From Cellulophaga sp. F20128 (GTDB lineage Bacteria; Bacteroidota; Bacteroidia; Flavobacteriales; Flavobacteriaceae), in assembly GCF_023015805.1 (NCBI RefSeq), contig NZ_JALKBA010000024.1, positions 1-38,830 of the forward strand: a stretch of 38,830 nucleotides of DNA, given 5' to 3'. The position numbers and the translations under genes are program-made. The notes under the pieces were generated by a model. It saw only the letters and a list, made by a program, of their open reading frames with translations, was not told the origin of the DNA and made no database searches. Shown here piece after piece: positions 9,058 through 35,263 of this stretch. Position 1 is the stretch's first letter. Each line of letters starts with the position of its first letter.

Positions 9058-9116
9058 ATTGATGTTCTTGTTTTAGATTAAATACAGTATTTTTGCCCAT
9101 AATTTCAAAATTATTT

Positions 9117-9830
9117 ATGAACTACGAGCTTACCATAATTGTACCTGTTTACAACGAGGAAGATAATTTACAACGTGTAGAAAAAGAATTGAGCAGTTAT
9201 ATTAAAATTGCTACCAAAAAAACAAAGATTCTTTTTGTAAATGATGGATCAAAAGATCAAAGTCAGGCCTTAATTGAAAAAATTTGCACTAAAAATCCTG
9301 ATTTCTCCTATATTCTTTTTGAAAAAAATTGCGGCCTTACCGCTGCCATAAAAGCGGGGTTTGATGCCGTTGACACCGAACTTGTGGGGTATATTGATTC
9401 TGACTTACAAACTTCCCCAGAAGATTTTAACCTATTGCTAGCACAAATTCCTGAATACGATTTGGTAACCGGAGTACGCTCCAATAGGAAGGATTCATTT
9501 GTTAAAAATATGTCTTCGACCATTGCTAATGGTATTCGGCGCGCTTTTACGCATGATGGTATGGATGATACCGGCTGTCCGTTGAAAATAATCAAAACAG
9601 ATTATGCCAAAAGAATACCAATGTTTAGAGGGTTGCATCGTTTTTTACCGGCAATGATCTTATTGCAAAATGGAAAAATAAAACAAATTACGGTACAACA
9701 TTTTCCTCGCATGGCAGGACAAGCCAAATTTGGACTGTGGAATCGTTTGTTGGGCCCTTTGGCAGATTGCTTTGCTTATTTATGGATGAAACGCAAGTAT
9801 ATAAACTATTCGGTAGCCAAAAAGGGATAA
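9117..9830 (+). CDS. GT2 glycosyltransferase, polyprenyl-phosphate sugar synthase type
   Basis: This 237-residue GT-A enzyme shows PVYNEEDN (10-17), FVNDGSKDQS, and the donor-binding DSDLQ near residue 93. The following G.RSNRKDSFVKN and DTGCPLK segments resemble DPM1/ArnC-like enzymes that transfer a sugar from a nucleotide to undecaprenyl phosphate. There is no C-terminal membrane pair as in ArnC, so it is the soluble or peripheral form. ATG 9117 is preferred over a TTG at 9093 because it places the beta-strand/PVYNEE motif at the usual distance. It is followed without gap by the LAB_N gene and then by a GT39 enzyme that would use the lipid-linked sugar. Confidence 0.88.
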   Translation: MNYELTIIVPVYNEEDNLQRVEKELSSYIKIATKKTKILFVNDGSKDQSQALIEKICTKNPDFSYILFEKNCGLTAAIKAGFDAVDTELVGYIDSDLQTSPEDFNLLLAQIPEYDLVTGVRSNRKDSFVKNMSSTIANGIRRAFTHDGMDDTGCPLKIIKTDYAKRIPMFRGLHRFLPAMILLQNGKIKQITVQHFPRMAGQAKFGLWNRLLGPLADCFAYLWMKRKYINYSVAKKG

Positions 9831-10448
9831 ATGACAGAAACGCTCATATATGCCATTGGGTTTTTAGCACAAATTCTATTTTCTGGAAGATTATTATCAC
9901 AATGGATATTATCTGAAAAACAGAAAAAGGTTGTTACCCCTTCGCTCTTTTGGAAATTAAGCCTGTTGGCCTCCTTTATACTATTTATCTACGGGTGGTT
10001 ACGCCATGATTTTGCCATTATGTTAGGGCAAATATTAACCTATTATATTTACATTAGAAATCTGCAGTTGCAAGGCGAATGGAAAAAATGGCCCTCCCTA
10101 ATTCGTGCAATGTTATGGATATTTCCAGTTTTAATTGTAATCTACTCCTACAACAACAATCAATACGACATAAGCAATCTTTTTAAAAACGATGCCATAC
10201 CCTTATGGCTATTACTTTTAGGTAGTATTGCACAGGTAATATTTACAACCCGCTTTATTGTACAATGGTTACATTCCGAAAAAAACAAGACATCTTCGTT
10301 GCCCTTTAGTTTTTGGCTTTTAAGTCTTATTGGTTCTACCCTTATTTTAGTATATGCTATCATTAGAAAAGATCCAGTATTATTTGTCGGCCATATTTTT
10401 GGTGCTTTTGTTTATAGTAGAAACATATTTTTATCAAAAAAGAAATAA
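9831..10448 (+). CDS. Tandem LAB_N (lipid A biosynthesis N-terminal domain) membrane protein
   Basis: This 205-residue integral membrane protein consists of two copies of the short LAB_N domain: about residues 3-75 (GFLAQILFSGRLLSQWILSE, later GQILTYYIYIRN) and about 122-195 (GSIAQVIFTTRFIVQWLHSE, later GHIFGAFVYSRN). The repeated pattern is G.xAQxxFxxRxxxQWxxSE, a short loop, FWxLSL and a GxxxxxxxYxRN helix. LAB_N is usually associated with lipid A genes; its biochemical role is not established. It starts directly after the stop of the GT2 gene and its stop overlaps the next ATG (TAATG). Confidence 0.9.
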   Translation: MTETLIYAIGFLAQILFSGRLLSQWILSEKQKKVVTPSLFWKLSLLASFILFIYGWLRHDFAIMLGQILTYYIYIRNLQLQGEWKKWPSLIRAMLWIFPVLIVIYSYNNNQYDISNLFKNDAIPLWLLLLGSIAQVIFTTRFIVQWLHSEKNKTSSLPFSFWLLSLIGSTLILVYAIIRKDPVLFVGHIFGAFVYSRNIFLSKKK

Positions 10449-12064
10449 TGAGTCTCCAAAATAAATATTACCTCCTACTTACTCTTTGTTGCATTCCTTT
10501 ATTCTTTTTGCATTTAGGCGTTATGCCAGTTACCATTATGGAAGCTCGTAACTTTATTTCAGCTCGGGAGATGCTTACCGAAGGAAATTGGATCATGACG
10601 ACAATGAACGATTTGCCTAGGTACCAAAAACCGCCATTACCCACATGGCTTTCTGCCTTATCTGCATTAATTTTAGGAGTAAAAAGTGAATTTGCATATC
10701 GACTTCCGGTATCCATTATGGCCCTCTTTTCTGTATTGTCTTTTTTTAAATTGATTCAGTACATCACCAAAAATATACGTTTGGCATTTATAGGAGCTTT
10801 AATATTAGCCACTTCCCTCTACATTATTGCAATACAACGTGAAGCTCCATGGGATATTTACACCCACGGTTTTATGTTGGCTGCAATTTTATATTTGGTC
10901 AAATTATTTCAAGAAGATGCTGGTAAAATAAAATATGGTCTTATTGCTGGAGTATTTTTAGGGCTGTCCATTTTAGGAAAAGGCCCCATTGCATTCTACG
11001 CCTTACTTCTCCCCTTTTTAATTGCCTATGGTATTGTTTATAAATACAAAAATATTAGTTCTTATATCCTACCATTCATCCTTTTTATTGCAACCGGACT
11101 TTTAATTGGCGGTTGGTGGTATGCCTATGTAAGAATTGTAGATCCTGAGGCTTTTCTGGTTATAGCCGAACGGGAAACTGCCAATTGGAGTAACTATAAT
11201 GTAAAACCATTTTACTTCTATTGGAGCTTTTTTATTCAAAGTGGTATTTGGACAATTCCCGCGTTAATTGGCCTCTGTTACCCCTACCTTAAAAATAAAG
11301 TAACAGACAAAAAAGTCTATTTACTTGCAGTACTTTGGACGGCCTTTGTATTCTTATTACTCTCTATAATTCCGGAAAAAAAACCAAGATACCTAGTTCC
11401 CATCTTAATCCCATTAGCCCTAAGTACCGCCTTTTACATAGACTACTTACTAACCAACATTAGCTTCATAAAAAATAAAGTAGAACTCGGATTGGTTTAT
11501 TTTACTTTTGGATTAATTGGACTGATTGGAATCGTTTTTGGAGGCGTTGGATATGGCTATCTAAAAGACACTATGACGCCTGAAGGCACCATCTACTTTG
11601 TACTTTTAGCCCTGTTATTATTTGTTTTAGGCATAGGCATTTTTACAAATTTAAAACGTAAAAATATGTATATGGTTTTTCTTGGGTTTGTTTTTTTTAT
11701 GATGGGCTTGGTTGGGTTAGGACTTCCCATTTCAAAGTCTTTTCAACAAAACACGGGCTATACTACCATGGCAGACGTAAAAGAAAATATAGATCTAGAA
11801 GGAAAAAAAATATATCACTACGGTGAAATAGCACCAGAGATTTTGTATAATTATGGTGCAATACTACCCGATATTAGTACAGCAAAGGAAGAAAGCCAAT
11901 ATTTTGTTTTGGTAAACAAAAATTTAGAAATAAAATTTTTGAGTGAGCACCATCAAACCTTAGAACCAATAACTACCTTTGATTTAAATGTTACGGCAAA
12001 ACCGAATGAAAAAGGACATAAGGATAGATTAACTGCCGTATTGTATCACATTAATAAAAAGTAA
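10448..12064 (+). CDS. ArnT-like GT39/PMT-family integral membrane glycosyltransferase
   Basis: This 538-residue multi-pass protein of the ArnT/PMT_2 type moves a sugar from a polyprenyl-phosphate carrier to an acceptor such as lipid A at the periplasmic face. Seen: a first periplasmic loop with the acidic motif MEARNF (Glu32 at the usual catalytic Asp/Glu position), KPPLPTW (61-67), about 11-12 hydrophobic helices, an EKKPRYLVPI segment and a C-terminal soluble tail (about 440-538). Acceptor and sugar cannot be read from the sequence. The operon context (GT2 donor synthase, LAB_N) supports a lipid A or envelope glycan target. Confidence 0.88.
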   Translation: MSLQNKYYLLLTLCCIPLFFLHLGVMPVTIMEARNFISAREMLTEGNWIMTTMNDLPRYQKPPLPTWLSALSALILGVKSEFAYRLPVSIMALFSVLSFFKLIQYITKNIRLAFIGALILATSLYIIAIQREAPWDIYTHGFMLAAILYLVKLFQEDAGKIKYGLIAGVFLGLSILGKGPIAFYALLLPFLIAYGIVYKYKNISSYILPFILFIATGLLIGGWWYAYVRIVDPEAFLVIAERETANWSNYNVKPFYFYWSFFIQSGIWTIPALIGLCYPYLKNKVTDKKVYLLAVLWTAFVFLLLSIIPEKKPRYLVPILIPLALSTAFYIDYLLTNISFIKNKVELGLVYFTFGLIGLIGIVFGGVGYGYLKDTMTPEGTIYFVLLALLLFVLGIGIFTNLKRKNMYMVFLGFVFFMMGLVGLGLPISKSFQQNTGYTTMADVKENIDLEGKKIYHYGEIAPEILYNYGAILPDISTAKEESQYFVLVNKNLEIKFLSEHHQTLEPITTFDLNVTAKPNEKGHKDRLTAVLYHINKK

Positions 12065-26989: not shown

Positions 26990-27673
26990 CTAATATTTAA
27001 ATCTTGTTCTTTTTATTTTTCCACTATTAAACCAATGCACCAAATCTACATACAGAAATGATAACTTAAAAAGTTTTCTACCATTGGGTACTATAGGGTT
27101 TTTAGACTTTGGCCTTTCATAAATTTTAACGTGTTCACAATCCTTTAATCCATCAATAGGTAAAGCTCCAAATGATAATTTGTTTTCAAACGGAAGTTTA
27201 TGAAACTCTTTAATAATTTCCGTATCAACACGTTCCCGATCACATATCATAAAAAACAAATTATCTGTACTCTTCAGGGCTTGTAATCTACTTTTCCTTC
27301 TCTCCCATTTAAGTTGCGCCTCTGTTGAGTCTTTGTAATGCGTAAAATGTACTTCAACATCAGCTAAAAGACCTACAGGATAGGTTTTTTCTCTGTCCTT
27401 ATACTTAGAAACATCAACAAACAAGAGCTGTTGCCCCATATAGAAATCAAAATTTTGCAACAGTTTTAAATAACAGGGGCCATACATAAAAAGGCCTATA
27501 AAGGGTGAATTATAAGGTTTATTTAACCATTGATAATTACTTCCCCCCCAGCAATTATTAGAAACAATGGCAAAGTTTTTATTTTCCAACTTAACCATAT
27601 CCCTAGTTGCATAATTATTTTTAAAGTATTGCCGCAACTTTCTTTTTACAAAAACCTCAAGTGTTCTTAACAT
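26990..27673 (-). CDS. DUF1919 family protein (surface polysaccharide-type)
   Basis: This 227-residue protein matches DUF1919: FAIVSNNCWGG (34-44), then YNSPFIGLFMYGPCYLKLL, a YPVGLLADVEVHFTHY segment, and a W.RR motif (LKWERRKSRL) followed by FFMICDRER. DUF1919 proteins are found in exopolysaccharide and capsule loci of other phyla and are assumed to act as transferases; the chemistry is unknown. Odd here is its position inside a housekeeping operon, three bases after ruvX and nine before def. It may serve the glycan cluster encoded divergently a few hundred bases away. Confidence 0.82.
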   Translation of the reverse strand: MLRTLEVFVKRKLRQYFKNNYATRDMVKLENKNFAIVSNNCWGGSNYQWLNKPYNSPFIGLFMYGPCYLKLLQNFDFYMGQQLLFVDVSKYKDREKTYPVGLLADVEVHFTHYKDSTEAQLKWERRKSRLQALKSTDNLFFMICDRERVDTEIIKEFHKLPFENKLSFGALPIDGLKDCEHVKIYERPKSKNPIVPNGRKLFKLSFLYVDLVHWFNSGKIKRTRFKY

Positions 27674-28114: not shown

Positions 28115-28167
28115 ATATATAAATTGTTATATGTTTACTTTTGACCAAATTATTAAGTTGTACCTAT

Positions 28168-28194: not shown

Positions 28195-29010
28195 ATGACA
28201 GAATTACAAAAAACCATAGAAAAAGCTTGGGACAACCGAGAGCTTTTAAAAGAAACCAAAACTCAAGATGCTATTCGGCAAGCAATAGACCTTATAGATA
28301 GTGGCAAATTAAGATGTGCAGAACCAACAGCTACGGATTGGCAAATTAATGAATGGGTAAAAAAAGCAGTGGTACTTTATTTTCCGATTCAAAAAATGGA
28401 AACTATTGAAGTAGGTATTTTTGAATATCACGATAAAATGCCTTTAAAAAGAGGCTATGCCGAAAAAGGAATACGTGTTGTTCCCAATGCCGTTGCAAGA
28501 CATGGCGCCTATATTTCTCCTGGTACCATTTTAATGCCAAGTTACGTAAATATTGGCGCTTATGTAGATGAAGGTACTATGGTAGACACTTGGGCAACGG
28601 TTGGGAGTTGCGCACAAATTGGAAAAAATGTACATTTAAGCGGTGGTGTTGGTATTGGTGGCGTTTTAGAACCACTGCAAGCGGCTCCTGTTATTATTGA
28701 AGACGGTGCCTTTATTGGTTCTAGGTGTATTGTTGTTGAAGGTGTAAGAGTAGAAAAAGAAGCTGTTTTAGGGGCCAATGTTGTTTTAACAATGAGTACT
28801 AAAATTATTGACGTAACTGGTGATGAACCTATTGAAATGAAAGGAAGAGTTCCTGCTCGTTCTGTAGTGATACCAGGTAGCTACACTAAAAAATTTGCTG
28901 CAGGGGAATACAATGTACCCTGTGCCTTGATCATAGGGAAACGCAAGGAAAGCACAAACAAAAAGACATCTTTAAATGATGCCTTGCGCGAATATGATGT
29001 AGCCGTATAA
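28195..29010 (+). CDS. dapD: Tetrahydrodipicolinate N-succinyltransferase DapD
   Basis: This 271-residue enzyme of lysine/meso-diaminopimelate synthesis transfers succinyl from succinyl-CoA to tetrahydrodipicolinate, feeding peptidoglycan. It is a left-handed beta-helix protein: hexapeptide-type repeats run from about residue 100 to 220 (GAYISPGTILMPSYVNIGAYVDEGTMVDTWATVGSCAQIG). The N-terminal domain contains the usual GKLRCAEP segment. I chose ATG 28195 (MTELQKTIEKAWDNR), which matches the family N-terminus; the frame also opens at TTG 28141, which overlaps the promoter. It heads a short operon with a HAD-like gene and a LicD gene. Confidence 0.96.
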   Translation: MTELQKTIEKAWDNRELLKETKTQDAIRQAIDLIDSGKLRCAEPTATDWQINEWVKKAVVLYFPIQKMETIEVGIFEYHDKMPLKRGYAEKGIRVVPNAVARHGAYISPGTILMPSYVNIGAYVDEGTMVDTWATVGSCAQIGKNVHLSGGVGIGGVLEPLQAAPVIIEDGAFIGSRCIVVEGVRVEKEAVLGANVVLTMSTKIIDVTGDEPIEMKGRVPARSVVIPGSYTKKFAAGEYNVPCALIIGKRKESTNKKTSLNDALREYDVAV

Positions 29011-29021
29011 TACCATTAAAA

Positions 29022-29399
29022 ATGAAAACAATTCTTGTAGATGCTTGGAATACATTTGTAACCGAAGAGGGAATAGATGCTGCGCTAGAAAAAATTTTAG
29101 ATTCTTATCCTAATCCAAAAATTATCTTAACCAATGCAACCCAAGAAGAATGTATAACATATGGAATACTTAATATGCCTTATGAGGTTTTTAGCCTTGA
29201 ACACAGGCCAAACAAAACTGATAAGGCATATTATATTGAAATGTTAGATCATTTTAATATAAAAGCAACCGATGTGCTCTATTTTGAACATAACTTAGAG
29301 GCCGTTAATGCTGCATTATCCGTTGGTATTAAAACATACCACTATAGAAAAAATGAAGATGCCATGCATTTAAATTCATTTTTAAAGGAAAATTTATAA
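29022..29399 (+). CDS. Small HAD-like protein of unknown substrate
   Basis: This 125-residue protein is HAD-like in layout: a first strand ending D7-A-W-N-T (nucleophile position Asp7, but the usual second Asp at +2 is Trp9), a second strand IILTNAT (motif II Thr), a conserved Lys near 66, and VLYFEHNLEAVNAALSVGIKTYHY in the place of motif IV and the closing strand. The missing acid/base Asp suggests reduced or altered catalysis. It lies 11 bases after dapD and 8 bases before the LicD gene. HAD-superfamily assignment is by motif layout. Confidence 0.75.
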   Translation: MKTILVDAWNTFVTEEGIDAALEKILDSYPNPKIILTNATQEECITYGILNMPYEVFSLEHRPNKTDKAYYIEMLDHFNIKATDVLYFEHNLEAVNAALSVGIKTYHYRKNEDAMHLNSFLKENL

Positions 29400-29407
29400 T
29401 ATCATTT

Positions 29408-29992
29408 ATGGCTTATAACATCACATTAGAAGGTAAAAACACAGTTATAGCTGAAAGAATGCTTAAAAATGTGGCGAGCATATTACATAGGTGTGATATT
29501 GAGTATTGGTTAGAAGGTGGTACCTTATTAGGAATTAGAAGAGAAAATAGGTTGCTTCCCTGGGATAATGATATTGATGTTTCCATACATTCGAACCAAA
29601 TCGACAAAATTGATTCATTTTATTCCCAATTGCAAAAAGCCGGATATCGTGTAAAAACAAGGTATTTTAACAGCACCAATGAATTTTTCAAAAAAGGTGA
29701 TATTCGTATGATTAAAGTACGGGAGAAACGATTTTTTGGTTTAATAAAAGGCCCTGTATGTTTGGATGTTTTTATAAAATATCCAGAAAAGGATAAGGTG
29801 TATTGGGAGATTGCGAATAAAACTAAATTTGTACCCAGTAAATTCTATCTAACTTTTAAAGATGTTACGTTTAAAGGTTTTGACTATAAAGTTCCAACCT
29901 TAACAGATGAATATCTTACCTACCGATACGGTGAATGGCAAACCCCTGTTAAAAATTGGGATACTGCTAAAGATGATAAGGCAATTGCTTAG
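29408..29992 (+). CDS. LicD-family phospho-group transferase
   Basis: This 194-residue LicD/fukutin-related nucleotidyltransferase-fold protein shows IEYWLEGGTLLGIRRENRLLPWDNDIDVSI, i.e. EGGTLLG (36-42) and the metal-binding D-x-D pair in PWDNDIDV (51-58). Family members transfer phosphocholine, or in eukaryotes ribitol phosphate, from a CDP-linked donor to a glycan. It is the third gene of the dapD-HAD-LicD run and its stop overlaps that of the convergent cytidylyltransferase by four bases. With the LicC-like and TagD-like genes nearby it probably decorates a surface glycan. Phospho-group identity unknown. Confidence 0.85.
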   Translation: MAYNITLEGKNTVIAERMLKNVASILHRCDIEYWLEGGTLLGIRRENRLLPWDNDIDVSIHSNQIDKIDSFYSQLQKAGYRVKTRYFNSTNEFFKKGDIRMIKVREKRFFGLIKGPVCLDVFIKYPEKDKVYWEIANKTKFVPSKFYLTFKDVTFKGFDYKVPTLTDEYLTYRYGEWQTPVKNWDTAKDDKAIA

Positions 29993-30627
29993 GACTTGTT
30001 ATCTTGTAACTGCAAAGTATTTTTTAAAATAGTACTACTAACATTGGCTGTATATGCAAAATACTCAATAGGACAAGTGGTTTTAGGAAACCTGCCTTTC
30101 CAATCATCACCAACAGAAATAGCATCAATCTGGTGTTCATCTACTACGCGTTGTTTGTTTTTGTCGACCTGAGGAATAACTTCATCCACATAACTAATGG
30201 CTTTTACAACATTCATTCTTTCATAAAAAGGAATTACGGGCAACCTTCCTTTTTCCTTTTTTATAAGCTCATCTGTTGAAACACCTACGACCAGATGGTC
30301 ACAAAGTTCTTTGGATTTTTTAAGTATATTTAAATGCCCATAGTGAAATATATCAAAACAACCCGAAGTATACATTTTCTTATATTTGGATGCTTTTTTT
30401 TCTACCATCACTTCAATACGGTACCCTCCATTTTTTTCTATACGAATCACATTACTAGTATCATAAAAGAAAGCACTTATTTTTTTTATAATGGCGAGCA
30501 TCTCTATTAAATCGGCCTCTAATTTAAACTTACTATCAATTAATAGTTTTACTTTGTCATTGGGATTTAAATTAAAATTCCAGTTCGGATATTCGGACGA
30601 TAAAATTTTTAGTGAAGCTTCTTTCAT
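29989..30627 (-). CDS. Cytidylyltransferase of the TagD/GCT type with N-terminal extension
   Basis: This 212-residue protein holds a cytidylyltransferase domain at about 84-205: G89-C-F-D-I-F-H95-Y-G-H98 nucleotide motif, VVGVSTDELI, PFYERMNVVKAISYVDEVIPQ, and a GDDWKGRF segment like TagD. It would make a CDP-activated alcohol phosphate (CDP-glycerol, CDP-ethanolamine, CDP-choline or CDP-ribitol). Odd points: an extra helical about 75-residue N-terminal domain, and YTANVSST (192-199) where TagD/GCT enzymes have R-T-E-G-[IV]-S-T-T, so the usual Arg is Tyr. The gene is opposite in strand to its neighbours. Substrate not assignable. Confidence 0.85.
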   Translation of the reverse strand: MKEASLKILSSEYPNWNFNLNPNDKVKLLIDSKFKLEADLIEMLAIIKKISAFFYDTSNVIRIEKNGGYRIEVMVEKKASKYKKMYTSGCFDIFHYGHLNILKKSKELCDHLVVGVSTDELIKKEKGRLPVIPFYERMNVVKAISYVDEVIPQVDKNKQRVVDEHQIDAISVGDDWKGRFPKTTCPIEYFAYTANVSSTILKNTLQLQDNKS

Positions 30628-30710
30628 TTAATAAATACCATGTGTAACATAAAACAAGCGTAAAGTTACAAAAACAATTAGAAGAAATATTTTATAATAG
30701 CCAAATATTT

Positions 30711-30740
30711 TTTGATAATAAATCATTTACCATAACTTTG
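30711..30740 (+). promoter_or_regulatory. Promoter of the LicC-like operon (TTTG-N18-TAACTTTG)
   Basis: TTTG at 30711-30714, an 18-base spacer and TAACTTTG at 30733-30740 together match the Bacteroidota -33/-7 promoter pattern. The -7 element ends 21 bases before ATG 30762. This is the best promoter seen in the window. Confidence 0.65.
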
Positions 30741-30761
30741 AAAACTTAATAAACGCACCCA

Positions 30762-31448
30762 ATGAAAATAGTAATTCTCGCTGCAGGAATAGGATCTCGA
30801 TTAGGAAACCCCTTTCCAAAGCCACTTACCCCATTAAATAATGGGAAAAGCATTATGCAAATGCAACTAGAAAATTTATGCTCTATTTTTGACATAGATG
30901 ATATAAGTACCGTAGTGGGATTTAAAAAAAACTTGATAATGGAGCGCTTTCCGGAAGTAAACTATATTTACAATCCTTTTTTTGATAGGACCAATACCTC
31001 TAAGAGTTTATTGCGAGCCTTAAAAAAGAACAAAGATAAATCGGTTCTTTGGCTAAATGGGGATGTTGTTTTTGACGCCAAGTTGCTAAAAACGTTACAG
31101 CCATATATGGATAAAAAACAATCGTTTGTGGCGGTTAATACTAGTAGCGTAGCCGAAGAAGAAGTAAAATACACCCTAAATGGTGATTATATCAACGAAC
31201 TTTCAAAAACAGTAAAAAACGGATTGGGTGAGGCTGTTGGTATAAACTATATTGCCAAAAAAGACATTACTTCCTTTATTAAAAGATTAGAAGAGGTTGA
31301 TGATAATGATTATTTTGAAAGAGGCTTAGAACTTGCAATAGAAAAAGACAATCTCAATGTTAGTGCCGTTGATATTTCCAAATTCAATTGTATGGAGGTA
31401 GACTTTAAAGAAGATCTTGACAACGCGAACGCCTTATTTAATACATGA
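30762..31448 (+). CDS. LicC-like nucleotidyltransferase (CDP-choline-type/sugar-nucleotide)
   Basis: This 228-residue NTP-transferase carries ILAAGIGSRL (5-14), PKPLTPL, IYNPFFDRTNTSKSLL (69-84, corresponding to the LicC NPFYxxTNNxxSL segment), LNGDVVF and a C-terminal NDYFERGLELAI followed by CMEVDFKEDLDNAN. This resembles LicC-type phosphocholine cytidylyltransferases more than glucose-1-phosphate enzymes. It would activate a phospho-alcohol or sugar with CTP. Its TGA overlaps the next ATG by four bases (ATGA), so it is coupled to the glycerophosphotransferase/GT2 gene. Substrate uncertain. Confidence 0.85.
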   Translation: MKIVILAAGIGSRLGNPFPKPLTPLNNGKSIMQMQLENLCSIFDIDDISTVVGFKKNLIMERFPEVNYIYNPFFDRTNTSKSLLRALKKNKDKSVLWLNGDVVFDAKLLKTLQPYMDKKQSFVAVNTSSVAEEEVKYTLNGDYINELSKTVKNGLGEAVGINYIAKKDITSFIKRLEEVDDNDYFERGLELAIEKDNLNVSAVDISKFNCMEVDFKEDLDNANALFNT

Positions 31449-33265
31449 AAGTAATACTGTTTTGTCAGAACGCTTATGCCTTTGGTATTCTTAACCCTAT
31501 TAAAAATGAATTAGTAGCGCAAGGGTATAACTTTCTATGGTATATAGATACGAAACTGATTTCAGTATTTCCTTATAAACAAGACAACTATACAACCAGG
31601 ATAGCAGATTTACAATTGTATAAAAGTGATGCCATTTTTTCACCCGGAAATGAAGTCCCCTATTATATACAAGGCGTAAAAGTTCAGATATTTCATGGAT
31701 TAGCTGGTGAAAAAAAAGGGCATTTTAGAATTCGACATTATTTTGACCTATACCTTACTCAAGGTCCGTACTTCACCAAACGCTTTCTTGAATTTAAAAA
31801 CAAGTATAAAAATTTTGAAGTTGTAGAAACCGGTTGGCCAAAATTAGATATTTATGGTTCAGAAAAAAACAAATACAAACAGGAAAAAAGTGAATTACTA
31901 AATACGTATGGGGCTCACAAGATCATTTTATATGCACCTACTTTTTCTCCACGTTTAACTTCAGCTCCTTTTTTACTTGAAGAGTTTAAAGAGTTGGCAA
32001 CAAACACCAGTCATCTTATACTTATTAAATTTCATGATTTGATGAGTAAAAATTTAATAGCCTCCTATAAAAAATTAGCGCTAGCTTGTAATAATGTCAT
32101 TTTTATAGAAGAAAAAAATATTGTAAAGTACTTACTATTAGCCGATGTAATGGTCAGTGACACCTCCTCTGTTATTTATGAATTTCTTCTGTTAGACAAA
32201 CCCGTAATAACTTTTAAAAACATTAACACTAAAATTTATTGGGATAATACTGCGACATACAGTGAACTTACTCAGATGGTACAAGACAACCTTACCAATG
32301 ACACTTACGCCAGCCAAAGGAAGTTTATAAATGAGGAATACCACCCGTATACAGACGGGAATTCTGCAAAGAGAATGCTTAAAGCTGTTCAAAATTATAT
32401 CGCTAAAAATGGTGTACCCCTAGAGCGGAAATTGCCCATAGACCGCGTACTTAAAATTAAGAAGATATTTGGCAAGCCTACGGCTAACCTCTATACTGAA
32501 GAAAGAAAGGAAAAGCTGAGTGCTTTGGTAATTACCTTTAACGAAATTAGAAATATAGAGGCCCTTTTAGAAAACTTAAAATTTGCAGATGAAATCATTA
32601 TCGTTGATTCTTTTAGCACAGATGGTACCCTTGAAAAAATAAAAGAGAGACCAAATGTTACGCTAGTGCAAAGGCCATTTAAAAATTATACAGACCAAAA
32701 ATCATTTACGCTTGGTTTAGCCACGAACAAATGGGTTTTATTCATAGATGCCGATGAACGAATCCCTGATGCTTTACAACATGAAGTACTAACTACCATA
32801 AACGATAGTACACGTAAAGCAGTAGCATATAAGGCATATCGAATATTTATGTTTAACAACAAAATTCTTCGGTATTGCGGTTGGCAAAGTGATAAAAACT
32901 ATCGCTTGTTTAACAAAGAAAAAGTAAATTTCTCTACGAAACGAATTGTACACGAAACATTAGAAATAAACGGAGAATCTTCTGTCCTTAAAAACAAACT
33001 GATACATTACGCTTATTACGATTACAATGTGTACAAAGAAAAAAGAATGAAATATGCGCATTTAAGGGCTATGGAAGATTTGAAAAATAACAAAAAAGCC
33101 ACCTTATTTCATTTGCACATAAAGCCAGTCACAAAGTTTATTGAACATTATATTGTGAAATTTGGGTTTTTAGACGGAAAAAGAGGCATCATAATAAGTT
33201 ACCTGTATGCTCTAGCCACCAAAGAGCATTATAAGAAATTAAAACAGTTACAACATGGGGAATAA
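31445..33265 (+). CDS. Two-domain protein: TagB/TagF-type CDP-glycerol glycerophosphotransferase + WaaE-like GT2
   Basis: This 606-residue fusion has residues about 1-320 as a GT-B fold of the CDP-glycerol:poly(glycerophosphate) glycerophosphotransferase family, with QIFHGLAGEKKG (81-92), YAPTFSPR (163-170), IKFHD, and LADVMVSDTSSVIYEFLLLDKPVI (about 232-255). After a linker (about 320-356), residues 357-600 form a GT2 enzyme: LSALVITFNEIRNIEALL, EIIIVDSFSTDGT, IDADER (434-439) and a C-terminal segment like WaaE/KdtX inner-core transferases. The fusion suggests sugar addition and phospho-alcohol addition on the same glycan. The 3' end overlaps the next gene by 11 bases. Confidence 0.88.
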   Translation: MKVILFCQNAYAFGILNPIKNELVAQGYNFLWYIDTKLISVFPYKQDNYTTRIADLQLYKSDAIFSPGNEVPYYIQGVKVQIFHGLAGEKKGHFRIRHYFDLYLTQGPYFTKRFLEFKNKYKNFEVVETGWPKLDIYGSEKNKYKQEKSELLNTYGAHKIILYAPTFSPRLTSAPFLLEEFKELATNTSHLILIKFHDLMSKNLIASYKKLALACNNVIFIEEKNIVKYLLLADVMVSDTSSVIYEFLLLDKPVITFKNINTKIYWDNTATYSELTQMVQDNLTNDTYASQRKFINEEYHPYTDGNSAKRMLKAVQNYIAKNGVPLERKLPIDRVLKIKKIFGKPTANLYTEERKEKLSALVITFNEIRNIEALLENLKFADEIIIVDSFSTDGTLEKIKERPNVTLVQRPFKNYTDQKSFTLGLATNKWVLFIDADERIPDALQHEVLTTINDSTRKAVAYKAYRIFMFNNKILRYCGWQSDKNYRLFNKEKVNFSTKRIVHETLEINGESSVLKNKLIHYAYYDYNVYKEKRMKYAHLRAMEDLKNNKKATLFHLHIKPVTKFIEHYIVKFGFLDGKRGIIISYLYALATKEHYKKLKQLQHGE

Positions 33266-33845
33266 GGCTAAAATAGAGCATAGCTTTTCTGAAGAAATTG
33301 ATGCATGTATAAAAGTTTTACAAGCTGGTGGAGTAATTCTATACCCAACAGATACGGTATGGGGCATTGGCTGTGATGCAACAAATTCAGAGGCAGTTGC
33401 CAAAATATACCAATTAAAGAAAAGAGTCAATACCAAAACTATGATCTGTTTGGTTGCTAATGACTTTATGTTAGAACGGTATATAGAAAACGTACCAGAA
33501 GTTGCCTTTGATATCCTAGATATTGCGGAAAAGCCAACCACCATTGTCTATGACCAACCTAAGGGCATTGCAATAAATTTAATTGCAGCAGACAATAGTT
33601 TAGCCGTACGAGTAGCTACGGATAAGTTTTGTCAATATTTAATTCAAAAATTTAAGAAACCTATTGTTTCTACTTCTGCAAATATCACAACACAACCAAG
33701 TCCTAAAAATTACAAAGAAATAAGCACAGAGATTTTAAAAGGTGTAGACTATGCCGTAAATTTGCAACGTAACGAACAAAAGGACACACCATCATCTATT
33801 ATCAAATTAGGAAATGATGGTACTGTAAAAGTGATTCGCAAATAA
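33255..33845 (+). CDS. tsaC: Threonylcarbamoyl-AMP synthase (TsaC/YrdC/Sua5 family)
   Basis: This 196-residue YrdC-fold protein makes threonylcarbamoyl-AMP from threonine, bicarbonate and ATP for the t6A37 tRNA modification. Seen: [13 protein letters not shown] (30-42), [27 protein letters not shown] and [10 protein letters not shown]. There is no C-terminal Sua5 domain, so it is the short type. The ATG 33255 lies inside the end of the TagF/GT2 frame (11-base overlap); no better start was found. It is followed two bases later by cca. Confidence 0.93.
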
Positions 33846-33847
33846 GA

Positions 33848-35263
33848 ATGGCGCAAAAAAACTACAAAGAAGCAATACAAGACCCAATTTTTTCAATCAT
33901 AGCAGAAGCTGCAGCCGAGATACATGTAGATTGTTTTGTAATTGGAGGTTTTGTGCGCGATTTTATATTAAAAAGAGGTATCCCTAAAGACATAGATATT
34001 GTTGCCGTTGGTAGCGGAATCGCTTTGGCTGAACGTGTAGCCGAAAAAATGGCAAACAAACCAAAGGTATCAGTTTTCAAAAATTTTGGAACAGCTATGT
34101 TACGGCATGGCTATATTGAATTGGAGTTTGTGGGGGCACGAAAAGAGAGTTATCACCGCGAAAGCAGAAACCCCATTGTAGAAGATGGCACTTTAGAAGA
34201 CGATCAAAACAGAAGAGATTTTACTATTAATGCCATGGCTATTTCTTTAAACAAAGAAACCTACGCTGAACTTTTAGACCCTTTTAATGGTCTAGCTGAT
34301 ATTGAAAGTAAAACAATTAGAACTCCATTAGAACCCGGAATTACCTACTCTGATGATCCTTTACGTATGATGAGAGCCATACGCTTTGCTACTCAGCTTC
34401 AATTTTCTATAGAAGAGAATTCTTTTGCTTCAATTTTAAAGAATAAGAATAGAATTAAGATTATTTCTAGAGAACGAATTATTGATGAATTACATAAAAT
34501 ATTAGCGAGCGCACAACCCTCAATTGGACTCGCCTTATTGCATGAATCAGAGCTTTTACCATATATTTTACCGGAATTAAGTGCACTACAAGGCATTGAA
34601 GAAATTGAAGGCCAAAAACACAAAGATAATTTTTGGCACACCTTAGAAGTCGTAGATAATATTTCAAGAAATACCGAAAATTTATGGTTGCGTTGGGCGG
34701 CACTTTTACATGATATAGGAAAAGCACCAACCAAAAAATTTCATAAAAAAATTGGATGGACCTTTCACGGTCATGAATTTGTGGGCTCCAAAATGGTGTT
34801 TAAAATTTTTAAACGCCTGCGTATGCCGTTGAATGAAAAAATGAAGTATGTGCAAAAAATGGTTTTAATGAGTTCTAGACCAATAGTACTTTCTGAAGAT
34901 TTTGTAACAGATTCTGCTGTACGCCGTTTAATTTTTGATGCTGGAGAAGACATAGAGGATTTAATGACCTTATGCGAGGCAGACATAACTACTAAAAATC
35001 CTAAAAAACAACGCAAATACCACAATAATTTTAAACTTGTTCGCCAAAAGATAGTTGAAGTAGAAGAAAGAGACCATGTTCGTAATTTTCAACCCCCAAT
35101 TAGTGGAGAAGAGATTATGAGTATCTTTAATCTGAAACCTTCAAAAGAAATAGGTATCCTTAAAGATGCAATAAAGGAAGCCATACTGGAAGGCGAAATT
35201 CCTAACGAATATGACGCAGCCCATAGTTTTATGCTTAAAAAAGGAAAGGAAATCGGATTATAA
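33848..35263 (+). CDS. cca: CCA-adding/tRNA nucleotidyltransferase with HD domain
   Basis: This 471-residue class II tRNA nucleotidyltransferase adds or repairs the 3' CCA end of tRNA. Seen: GGFVRDF (33-39), the D-I-D catalytic pair (48-50), [33 protein letters not shown], then the HD domain with LLHDIGKAP (near 290) and GHEFVGS. Starts two bases after tsaC and ends one base from the convergent TetR gene. Whether it adds all of CCA or only CC or A cannot be read. Confidence 0.95.

Follow-up and report, generated by a model that had tools for sequence, protein, structure and literature searches.

Introduction

In the synthesis of poly(glycerol phosphate) wall teichoic acid (TagD, TagB, TagF, TagGH), an alcohol phosphate is activated by cytidine triphosphate (CTP), and the transferase is a PF04464 protein of the TagF fold. 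In LicABCD phosphocholine decoration, which concerns the lipooligosaccharide (LOS) of Haemophilus and the teichoic acid of pneumococcus, a LicC-fold synthase and a LicD-family transferase take part. Here we analyse a gene set that recalls both systems, carried by a 38,830-nucleotide stretch of the flavobacterium Cellulophaga sp. F20128 (contig NZ_JALKBA010000024.1, positions 1 to 38,830), the whole of which is called the window below. Genes for a LicD-family phosphotransferase, a TagD-like cytidylyltransferase, a LicC-fold cytidylyltransferase and a fusion of a Glyphos_transf domain with a family 2 glycosyltransferase (GT2) sit between dapD and sua5-cca, and a degenerate gene for a haloacid dehalogenase (HAD)-like protein precedes them.

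The likeness to wall teichoic acid synthesis extends to some Microbacteriaceae, where LicC orthologues lie near TagF-like or TagGH-like genes. The present locus differs in being Gram-negative, in occupying a dapD-sua5 interval of LOS type in which no exporter was seen, and in having in its first module a LicC-fold, not a TagD-fold, synthase, with the GT2 fused. With LicABCD it shares the LOS-type locus; unlike LicABCD, it has Asn in place of the choline-site acid, its LicD pairs with the TagD-like and not with the LicC-like enzyme, and neither a LicA-type kinase nor a gene for choline import was seen at the locus, in agreement with a preliminary description of this DNA. The Cps3D/Cps7D capsule polymerases of Actinobacillus pleuropneumoniae, also Gram-negative, combine a cytidine diphosphate (CDP)-glycerol transferase and a glycosyltransferase in one protein, and the available part of one report describes TagF-like capsule polymerases that unite glycerophosphate and glycosyl transfer (PMC8262930). 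Cps3D and Cps7D get CDP-glycerol from a separate TagD-type glycerol-3-phosphate cytidylyltransferase (GCT), whereas in the present set the GT2 can be exchanged and not every locus has the fusion. CpgD, the CTP:phosphoglycerate cytidylyltransferase of Caulobacter, is a LicC-fold (COG1213) enzyme supplying an outer-membrane anionic glycolipid; it serves a sphingolipid pathway, however, and its partner genes differ, as far as the accessible portion of its description goes (PMC12275187). From the PntC/Ppm phosphonate-tailoring pathway, PntC (6pd1) is the solved structure closest to the LicC-like enzyme by profile, but a phosphoenolpyruvate (PEP) mutase over the cut-off is absent from this genome.

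The set is confirmed here as a real, recurrent gene set. With moderate confidence, we read it as a phosphoalcohol-decoration cassette in a locus of LOS- or lipopolysaccharide (LPS)-core type, found in Flavobacteriaceae and some other Bacteroidota. Made up of enzyme types known from Gram-positive teichoic acid synthesis, it probably attaches small phosphate-linked alcohols, for example glycerol phosphate, to the endotoxin core. The component families are known; what is new is their arrangement, and the pairing of a LicC-fold enzyme with a Glyphos_transf domain in a LOS-type locus. The preliminary description could name no matching system, and neither a match nor a description of this gene set was found among the open-licence PMC papers listed, which is a weak absence.

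Results

Gene content of the locus

The set proper spans positions 29022-33265 of the window. The preliminary description had begun it at 28195, a position that belongs to dapD (28195..29010, + strand; tetrahydrodipicolinate N-succinyltransferase, Pfam THDPS_N_2), the conserved housekeeping flank on the left. The dapD open reading frame (ORF) opens with a TTG at 28141; the ATG at 28195 is the likely start, the alignment of most relatives beginning at residue 19. The genes had also been taken as one set, and here the view had to be changed, as two separable modules are found instead.

Module 1 (LicC-Glyphos_transf) consists of a LicC-fold cytidylyltransferase, proposed to be a CDP-polyol or CDP-glycerol synthase (30762..31448, +; NTP_transf_3 PF12804, 3.4e-15), and of the fusion, a single ORF of 606 amino acids (31445-33265, +) that shares its first 4 bp with the end of licC. 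The fusion joins an N-terminal Glyphos_transf domain of TagB/TagF/TarL type (31445..32435, +; PF04464, 1e-22, 81 bits for a cut-off of 22.1) to a C-terminal GT2 domain (32501..33265, +; Glycos_transf_2 PF00535, 1.9e-14), and it is the one PF04464 protein in the window's genome. Module 2 starts, when this gene is present, with the small HAD-like protein of 125 amino acids (29022..29399, +; no Pfam match). The LicD-family phosphotransferase of 194 amino acids (29408..29992, +; PF04991, 2.7e-16, 60.8 bits for a cut-off of 22.6) and the TagD/GCT-like cytidylyltransferase (29989..30627, − strand; CTP_transf_like PF01467, 1.6e-20) follow, their genes lying tail-to-tail with a 4-bp overlap. The four family assignments made earlier were thus all upheld by the Pfam profile searches. 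On the right, sua5/yrdC (33255..33845, +; PF01300) shares 11 bp with the fusion gene and forms the conserved flank together with a CCA tRNA nucleotidyltransferase-like gene (33848..35263, +), which was read from its ORF and is a conserved neighbour in the maps of relatives.

The LicC-like and Glyphos_transf genes are linked

A LicC-like match at 1e-10 was found in 26 of 249 family genomes, own genome included. Excluding the latter and two weak matches of 33-34% identity that lie in another type of cluster (G115 and G258, loci L130 and L131), the strong LicC-like set amounts to 23 genomes, one of which (G088) has a 49-residue LicC match at a contig end. A Glyphos_transf gene stands directly after the LicC-like gene in 22 of the 22 genomes whose contig extends far enough. 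Named relatives came from a scan with the LicC alignment (best 80 of 229 confirmed: 41 non-actinobacterial, L142-L182, and 39 actinobacterial, L183-L221); a contig scan with the fusion protein alone gave no confirmed relative. Some loci occur in both collections (L157=L112, L158=L122, L161=L114, L167=L118, L171=L128, L173=L032), so that the named-locus and family-genome counts are not independent. Computed counts took in L142-L181, and L182 was judged from its maps and scored as a miss.

In 39 of the 41 non-actinobacterial named loci the LicC-like gene is immediately followed by the Glyphos_transf gene, both on one strand and −25 to +10 bp apart. The two exceptions are L164, with Glyphos_transf 1 kb away on the opposite strand, and L182, a metagenome-assembled genome of Proteobacteria (LicC 62%, LicD 48%), with none directly downstream. 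The L164 contig, which comes from an Akkermansiaceae bin, has LicC-like (70%), TagD-like (42%), LicD (34%) and Glyphos_transf (37%) genes and a gene resembling the kinase of 3-deoxy-D-manno-octulosonic acid (Kdo); it represents either a transfer or a mis-binned contig. Of 17 genomes sampled in the window's genus, 10 encode the fusion at full length, and G013 has LicC with a separate, 33% identical Glyphos_transf protein.

A second, separable module of HAD-like, LicD and TagD-like genes

TagD-like matches occur in 38 of the 249 family genomes. Nine genomes besides our own have a full-length orthologue (at least 204 bits), the remaining matches reaching at most 111.5 bits. All nine fall within the 23 genomes with a strong LicC-like match, out of 248 other family genomes, so that co-occurrence goes beyond chance (hypergeometric 1e-10). 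The co-occurrence in relatives that the preliminary description proposed to check is seen in this survey of Flavobacteriaceae. In 9/9 the TagD-like gene is found in the dapD-licC interval, adjoining licC in eight (the G088 contig terminates within licC), and one GT2 gene intervenes in G251.

Counted above 150 bits, which excludes the 42% match of L164 (111 bits), TagD-like genes are present in 13 of the 40 loci L142-L181, tail-to-tail with LicD in 13/13 as well as in the nine other family genomes. The HAD-like gene was found in 9 of the 40 loci, each time with LicD and TagD-like (9 of 13), and six of the nine family genomes have it as well. LicD-like genes lacking a strong TagD-like partner were seen in six more of these loci (33-46% identity), in L182, G064 and G239. 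Module 2 can be relocated as a whole, since the LicD/TagD-like pair follows the fusion gene in L146 and L156. None of 17 same-genus genomes has LicD/TagD-like genes at this place (16 seen over the whole interval, G012 partially).

The dapD-sua5/cca interval in relatives

The fusion protein was matched in 50 of 60 relatives, mainly through its GT2 domain, and 32 stretches around the matches were mapped (L022-L053). The dapD and sua5/cca anchors are both present in 25 of them, ruvX and def lying beyond dapD. Between the anchors the contents vary, and include GT2, GT4, heptosyltransferase-type GT9 (PF01075) and Kdo/WaaP-type kinase (PF06293) genes, together with TupA-like ATP-grasp, GT-D, pyruvyl- and sulfotransferase genes (from clusters, with Pfam of ten representatives). 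Among L142-L181, dapD is upstream of the LicC-like gene in 36/40, sua5/cca downstream in 35/40, and both in 34/40. These flanks are conserved outside the family, Bacteroidales L176 and L180 included; neither is shown in L182. By its gene content the interval looks like an LPS/LOS-core locus.

A Kdo-kinase-like gene is present in 18 of the 40 loci, five of which also have LicD/TagD-like genes. The idea of a substitution for the Kdo kinase, which came from the lack of PF06293 in the own genome, was dropped, as LicC-Glyphos_transf coexists with Kdo-kinase-like genes in these 18 loci. A protein O-glycosylation locus of Bacteroidota (PMC12871550) was also set aside as a match, the word dapD being absent from the part of its text at hand.

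The LicC-fold enzyme and its donor

A profile of 27 LicC-like sequences matched PntC (6pd1, 2.1e-7) and LicC (1jyk, 6.5e-5), followed by glucose-1-phosphate and inositol-1-phosphate cytidylyltransferases. The acids close to the amine are Glu104 and Glu196 in PntC, Asp105 and Asp192 in LicC, according to the available part of the structural report (PMC6697681). Read from the weak profile alignment to PntC, the position of PntC Glu104/LicC Asp105 is Asn99 in our protein, and that of Glu196/Asp192 is Glu190. Both residues are invariant in the 27 sequences and in a second alignment of 37 (the window's protein and 36 from the 80 loci). A charged amine is less likely as substrate because Asn99 replaces an acid near the amine, within the limits of this weak alignment. 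The LicC-like type proposed earlier therefore holds for fold and family; the enzyme is not a canonical LicC, having Asn at the Asp105 position.

No PEP mutase over the cut-off was found in the own genome (best match 26.3 bits for a cut-off of 31.5, in a gene that by eye resembles PanB). Phosphocholine and phosphonate are disfavoured by this lack, by the lack of a clear choline kinase and by the Asn at the amine-site acid. Of the teichoic/phosphocholine-like label first given to the set, the phosphocholine half is thus disfavoured. At the loci read in detail no dehydrogenase gene was noticed alongside the LicC-like gene, so that glycerol-3-phosphate is the simplest choice of substrate, with ribitol and others also possible.

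In the other type of cluster, that of G115 and G258 (L130:6411-13098; L131:9948-14122), a LicC-like gene of 31-34% identity comes after genes that by eye are aldolase-, FGGY-kinase- and iron-alcohol-dehydrogenase-like. In L130 an ORF that by eye is TagF-like lies downstream of it. Judged on gene content, this cluster looks like a dedicated route to another CDP-polyol.

The transferases and the TagD-like enzyme

For the Glyphos_transf domain, profile matches were led by TarL (8va1, 8.4e-18) and Cps3D, and the structural model matched Cps3D (8qoy, 2.5e-11) and TagF (3l7l, 2.1e-10), a TagF-type fold. The model of the fusion is good over Glyphos_transf and poor over part of GT2 (low confidence at residues 457-517). 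His84, in an HG motif, and His197 are invariant in 24 Glyphos_transf sequences; we take the former to be the catalytic His and the latter the second His required in this family, the equivalence of residues being presumed. The PDB titles among the fold matches name H444, H548 and H300 mutants. Many loci have the GT2 as an ORF of its own, and elsewhere a GT4 (L034-L037) or a GT9 is fused instead (L125, L126, L128; 3 of the 40 loci L142-L181; L048 by eye).

The TagD-like protein scores 93.9 bits against TIGR01518 (GCT), under the cut-off of 165.4. Compared with 1coz, it keeps HYGH (the HxGH motif) and has YTANVSST in place of the RTEGISTT of GCT; Y192, T193, S197, S198 and T199 are invariant in alignments of 10 and of 14 TagD-like proteins. 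It is TagD/GCT-like, as assigned earlier, but not a canonical TagD, the GCT cut-off being missed and RTEGISTT not conserved. The model (mean predicted local distance difference test score 81.7) has GCT 1coz as its best fold match (7.4e-10, 37% identity), and the best single-domain match is to a glycerol-3-phosphate cytidylyltransferase, with 113.4 versus 82.3 bits. It has GDDWxGxF in common with these enzymes, and KG...ER features like ethanolamine/choline enzymes. About 75 additional N-terminal amino acids (residues 1-75) form a poorly conserved domain, predicted as alpha-beta-beta-alpha-beta-beta, which yielded no family match, its Foldseek rows being dominated by the catalytic domain.

In LicD, GGTLLG and WDxDxD are intact, with G38-G42, W52, D53, D55 and D57 invariant in 13 sequences; the closest solved relative by profile is fukutin-related protein (FKRP, 6kaj, 2.4e-9). 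The HAD-like protein gave a weak TIGR01509 match (0.0017, below cut-off) and a profile match to PDB 3kbb (0.0026). D7, W9, T37, K65 and E89 are invariant in an alignment of seven. It has D7-A-W9-N-T instead of DxDxT: the nucleophile Asp is kept, but an ordinary phosphatase role is doubtful because D+2 is Trp in all seven. It is possibly a non-catalytic partner.

LicC-like orthologues in Microbacteriaceae

LicC-like orthologues with 54-58% identity are found in Actinobacteria as well, almost all of them under the name Microbacteriaceae (39 loci among the best 80 of 229), and the 12 of these 39 proteins placed in a tree form a single clade. TagF-like Glyphos_transf genes lie within 8 kb in 17 of the 39 loci, in many of them several kb off and on the opposite strand; in L203, PF04464 matches reach 3.9e-94. 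TagGH-like genes (ABC-2 membrane protein and ATPase) adjoin LicC in 17/39, and a CDP-alcohol phosphotransferase-like gene is present in 9/39. A GCT over the cut-off was found in none of 27 actinobacterial genomes searched, 14 of which lacked any match, and a TagD-type match is absent from 8 of 12 searched genomes having TagF-like genes near licC. For CDP-polyol supply in these eight, the strongest candidate is the LicC-fold enzyme, since TagF-like genes are present there without a TagD-type match.

In 34 of the 39 loci a protein of about 300 amino acids without Pfam match follows LicC or the TagGH-like genes (e.g. L203:10304-11215).

Other features of the window

The G+C content of the set is 30-34%, slightly below the window mean of 35%, and is uninformative. 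No exporter or capsule genes were seen in the window's interval. No TagO/TagA or TagGH was noticed among the window's ORFs, no genome-wide search for them having been made. A DUF1919 gene (26990..27673, −; PF08942, 3.2e-47) is an occasional neighbour of the locus, lying within the dapD-sua5 interval in L112. Further away, at 9093-12064, consecutive genes resembling a GT2, the N-terminal part of lipid-A-disaccharide synthase and ArnT, all under NCBIfam cut-offs, suggest a lipid-A or glycolipid modification set.

Discussion

The cassette could act as follows. The LicC-fold enzyme would join CTP with a ubiquitous alcohol phosphate, likeliest sn-glycerol-3-phosphate, to give CDP-glycerol. The Glyphos_transf domain would then place the phosphoalcohol on a sugar of the core, and a neighbouring sugar would be added by the GT2, which is fused here. 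Where module 2 is present, its TagD-like enzyme would provide LicD with a CDP-alcohol, either CDP-glycerol or something closely related, for transfer to a second site; the role of the HAD-like protein would be accessory. The LOS/LPS core is the likely acceptor because in relatives the interval holds glycosyltransferase, heptosyltransferase-type and Kdo-kinase-type genes. We infer the alcohols, the acceptor residues and the addition of one unit rather than a chain; the earlier proposal of central metabolism as the source of the alcohol phosphate and of the LOS core as acceptor is plausible on both counts, at the same inferred level.

Several points weigh against this reading. The acceptor is deduced from gene neighbours, no PF06293 (Kdo kinase) match exists in the window's own genome, and capsule or O-antigen may be decorated instead. 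Two apparent CDP-alcohol synthases side by side would be odd if both yielded CDP-glycerol, and the LicC-fold precedent, CpgD, yields CDP-glycerate in the accessible part of its description (PMC12275187). With the whole TagD-like chain as profile, human Pcyt2 comes first (127.8 bits over two repeats versus 113.7 for GCT 1coz). A PF01633 choline-kinase family match lies on another contig of the own genome (30.4 bits for a cut-off of 29). Glyphos_transf also occurs without LicC: in G037 (L033:10014-13262) a 51% identical Glyphos_transf gene is preceded by GT2, TagD-like (44%) and LicD (38%), on a stretch that ends at the contig end 500 bp past Glyphos_transf. G025 and G031 (L044, L045) have diverged homologues (31-33%) in the dapD-cca interval and no LicC-like or TagD-like match at 1e-10 in the genome.

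In G037 the TagD-like gene is divergent from LicD, not tail-to-tail, another arrangement of the same families. As to the choline-kinase family match, its ORF (APH-like) adjoins a nucleotidyltransferase-like ORF among sulfatase-like genes (L232:3353-5313), and our tentative reading is that it is unrelated to the set.

Other readings place a different group on the same core. One or both modules might put phosphoethanolamine, phosphocholine or 2-aminoethylphosphonate on core Kdo and mannose, which we consider unlikely. Another flavobacterium, Capnocytophaga canimorsus, bears phosphoethanolamine at Kdo O-4 and on mannose, according to the available part of PMC3342949. Phosphocholine is the classical LicD cargo, and the Pcyt2 score, the KG...ER stretch and the choline-kinase match, barely above cut-off, point the same way. 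Set against these are Asn99 at the amine-acid position of LicC/PntC, the lack of a PEP mutase over the cut-off, and the best single-domain and fold matches of the TagD-like protein, which are glycerol-3-phosphate cytidylyltransferases sharing GDDWxGxF. It is quite unlikely, too, that the donor of module 1 is CDP-glycerate, made from 2- or 3-phosphoglycerate, and that the core bears phosphoglycerate, not glycerol phosphate. This route would require no additional gene, phosphoglycerate being a universal metabolite. CpgD, also of COG1213 and LicC-like, produces CDP-glycerate (PMC12275187, in part), and phosphodiester-linked glyceric acid is reported for the LPS core of the marine Shewanella pacifica in the accessible text of PMC4052302. 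The partner transferase is, however, of TagF/TarL type, and some actinobacterial orthologues lie near TagF-like genes. In teichoic acid pathways, TagF-type transferases usually use polyol phosphate.

That the fusion is a bifunctional polymerase like Cps3D/Cps7D, building a teichoic-like surface chain of poly(glycosyl-glycerol phosphate), is suggested by its top fold match, Cps3D 8qoy. We hold this to be highly improbable: the GT2 is often separate, or a GT4 or GT9 is fused in its stead, a pattern in keeping with single steps taken one after another; no exporter or capsule genes were seen in the window's interval, and the genome has one PF04464 protein. A chance mixture of unrelated decoration genes gathered in a recombination hotspot would fit the high variability of the interval and the 0/17 same-genus genomes with LicD/TagD-like genes there (G012 seen partially). 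It is scarcely credible and is largely refuted by the linkage counts, as the LicC-Glyphos_transf and LicD-TagD pairs keep order and orientation across genera, the former pair into Bacteroidales.

Beyond the phosphoalcohol cassette itself, we advance more tentatively, as a possible but doubtful extension, that the LicC-fold enzyme is a TagD-independent CDP-glycerol/CDP-polyol synthase of Microbacteriaceae and Bacteroidota, through which teichoic-type polyol phosphate would reach LOS, some strains having two routes and sites. The actinobacterial loci also speak in part against both this extension and the main reading: TagGH-like and TagF-like genes occur together in just 4/39 (L192, L199, L203, L205), 13/39 have neither Glyphos_transf nor CDP-alcohol transferase, and GCT-like matches under the cut-off exist in 13 of the 27 genomes, whose completeness is unstated, the best being that of L203 (107.6 bits). 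A review, in the part available, mentions phosphodiester-bound monosaccharides in the LOS core of Arenibacter certesii (PMC3210612). Six Arenibacter records, among which A. certesii is not named, carry module 1, and five of them also module 2. The Arenibacter core is a lead rather than support, because a sugar 1-phosphate diester is unexplained by a CDP-alcohol route.

If true, these readings would add an apparent LicC-fold CDP-polyol synthase, easily mislabelled as phosphocholine-related, and would make the dapD-sua5/cca interval a variable LOS-type locus usable in typing. They would also give a genetic basis to the LOS-core phosphodiester groups of marine Flavobacteriia. Such groups change surface charge and cation binding, and may change recognition by phages or antibodies.

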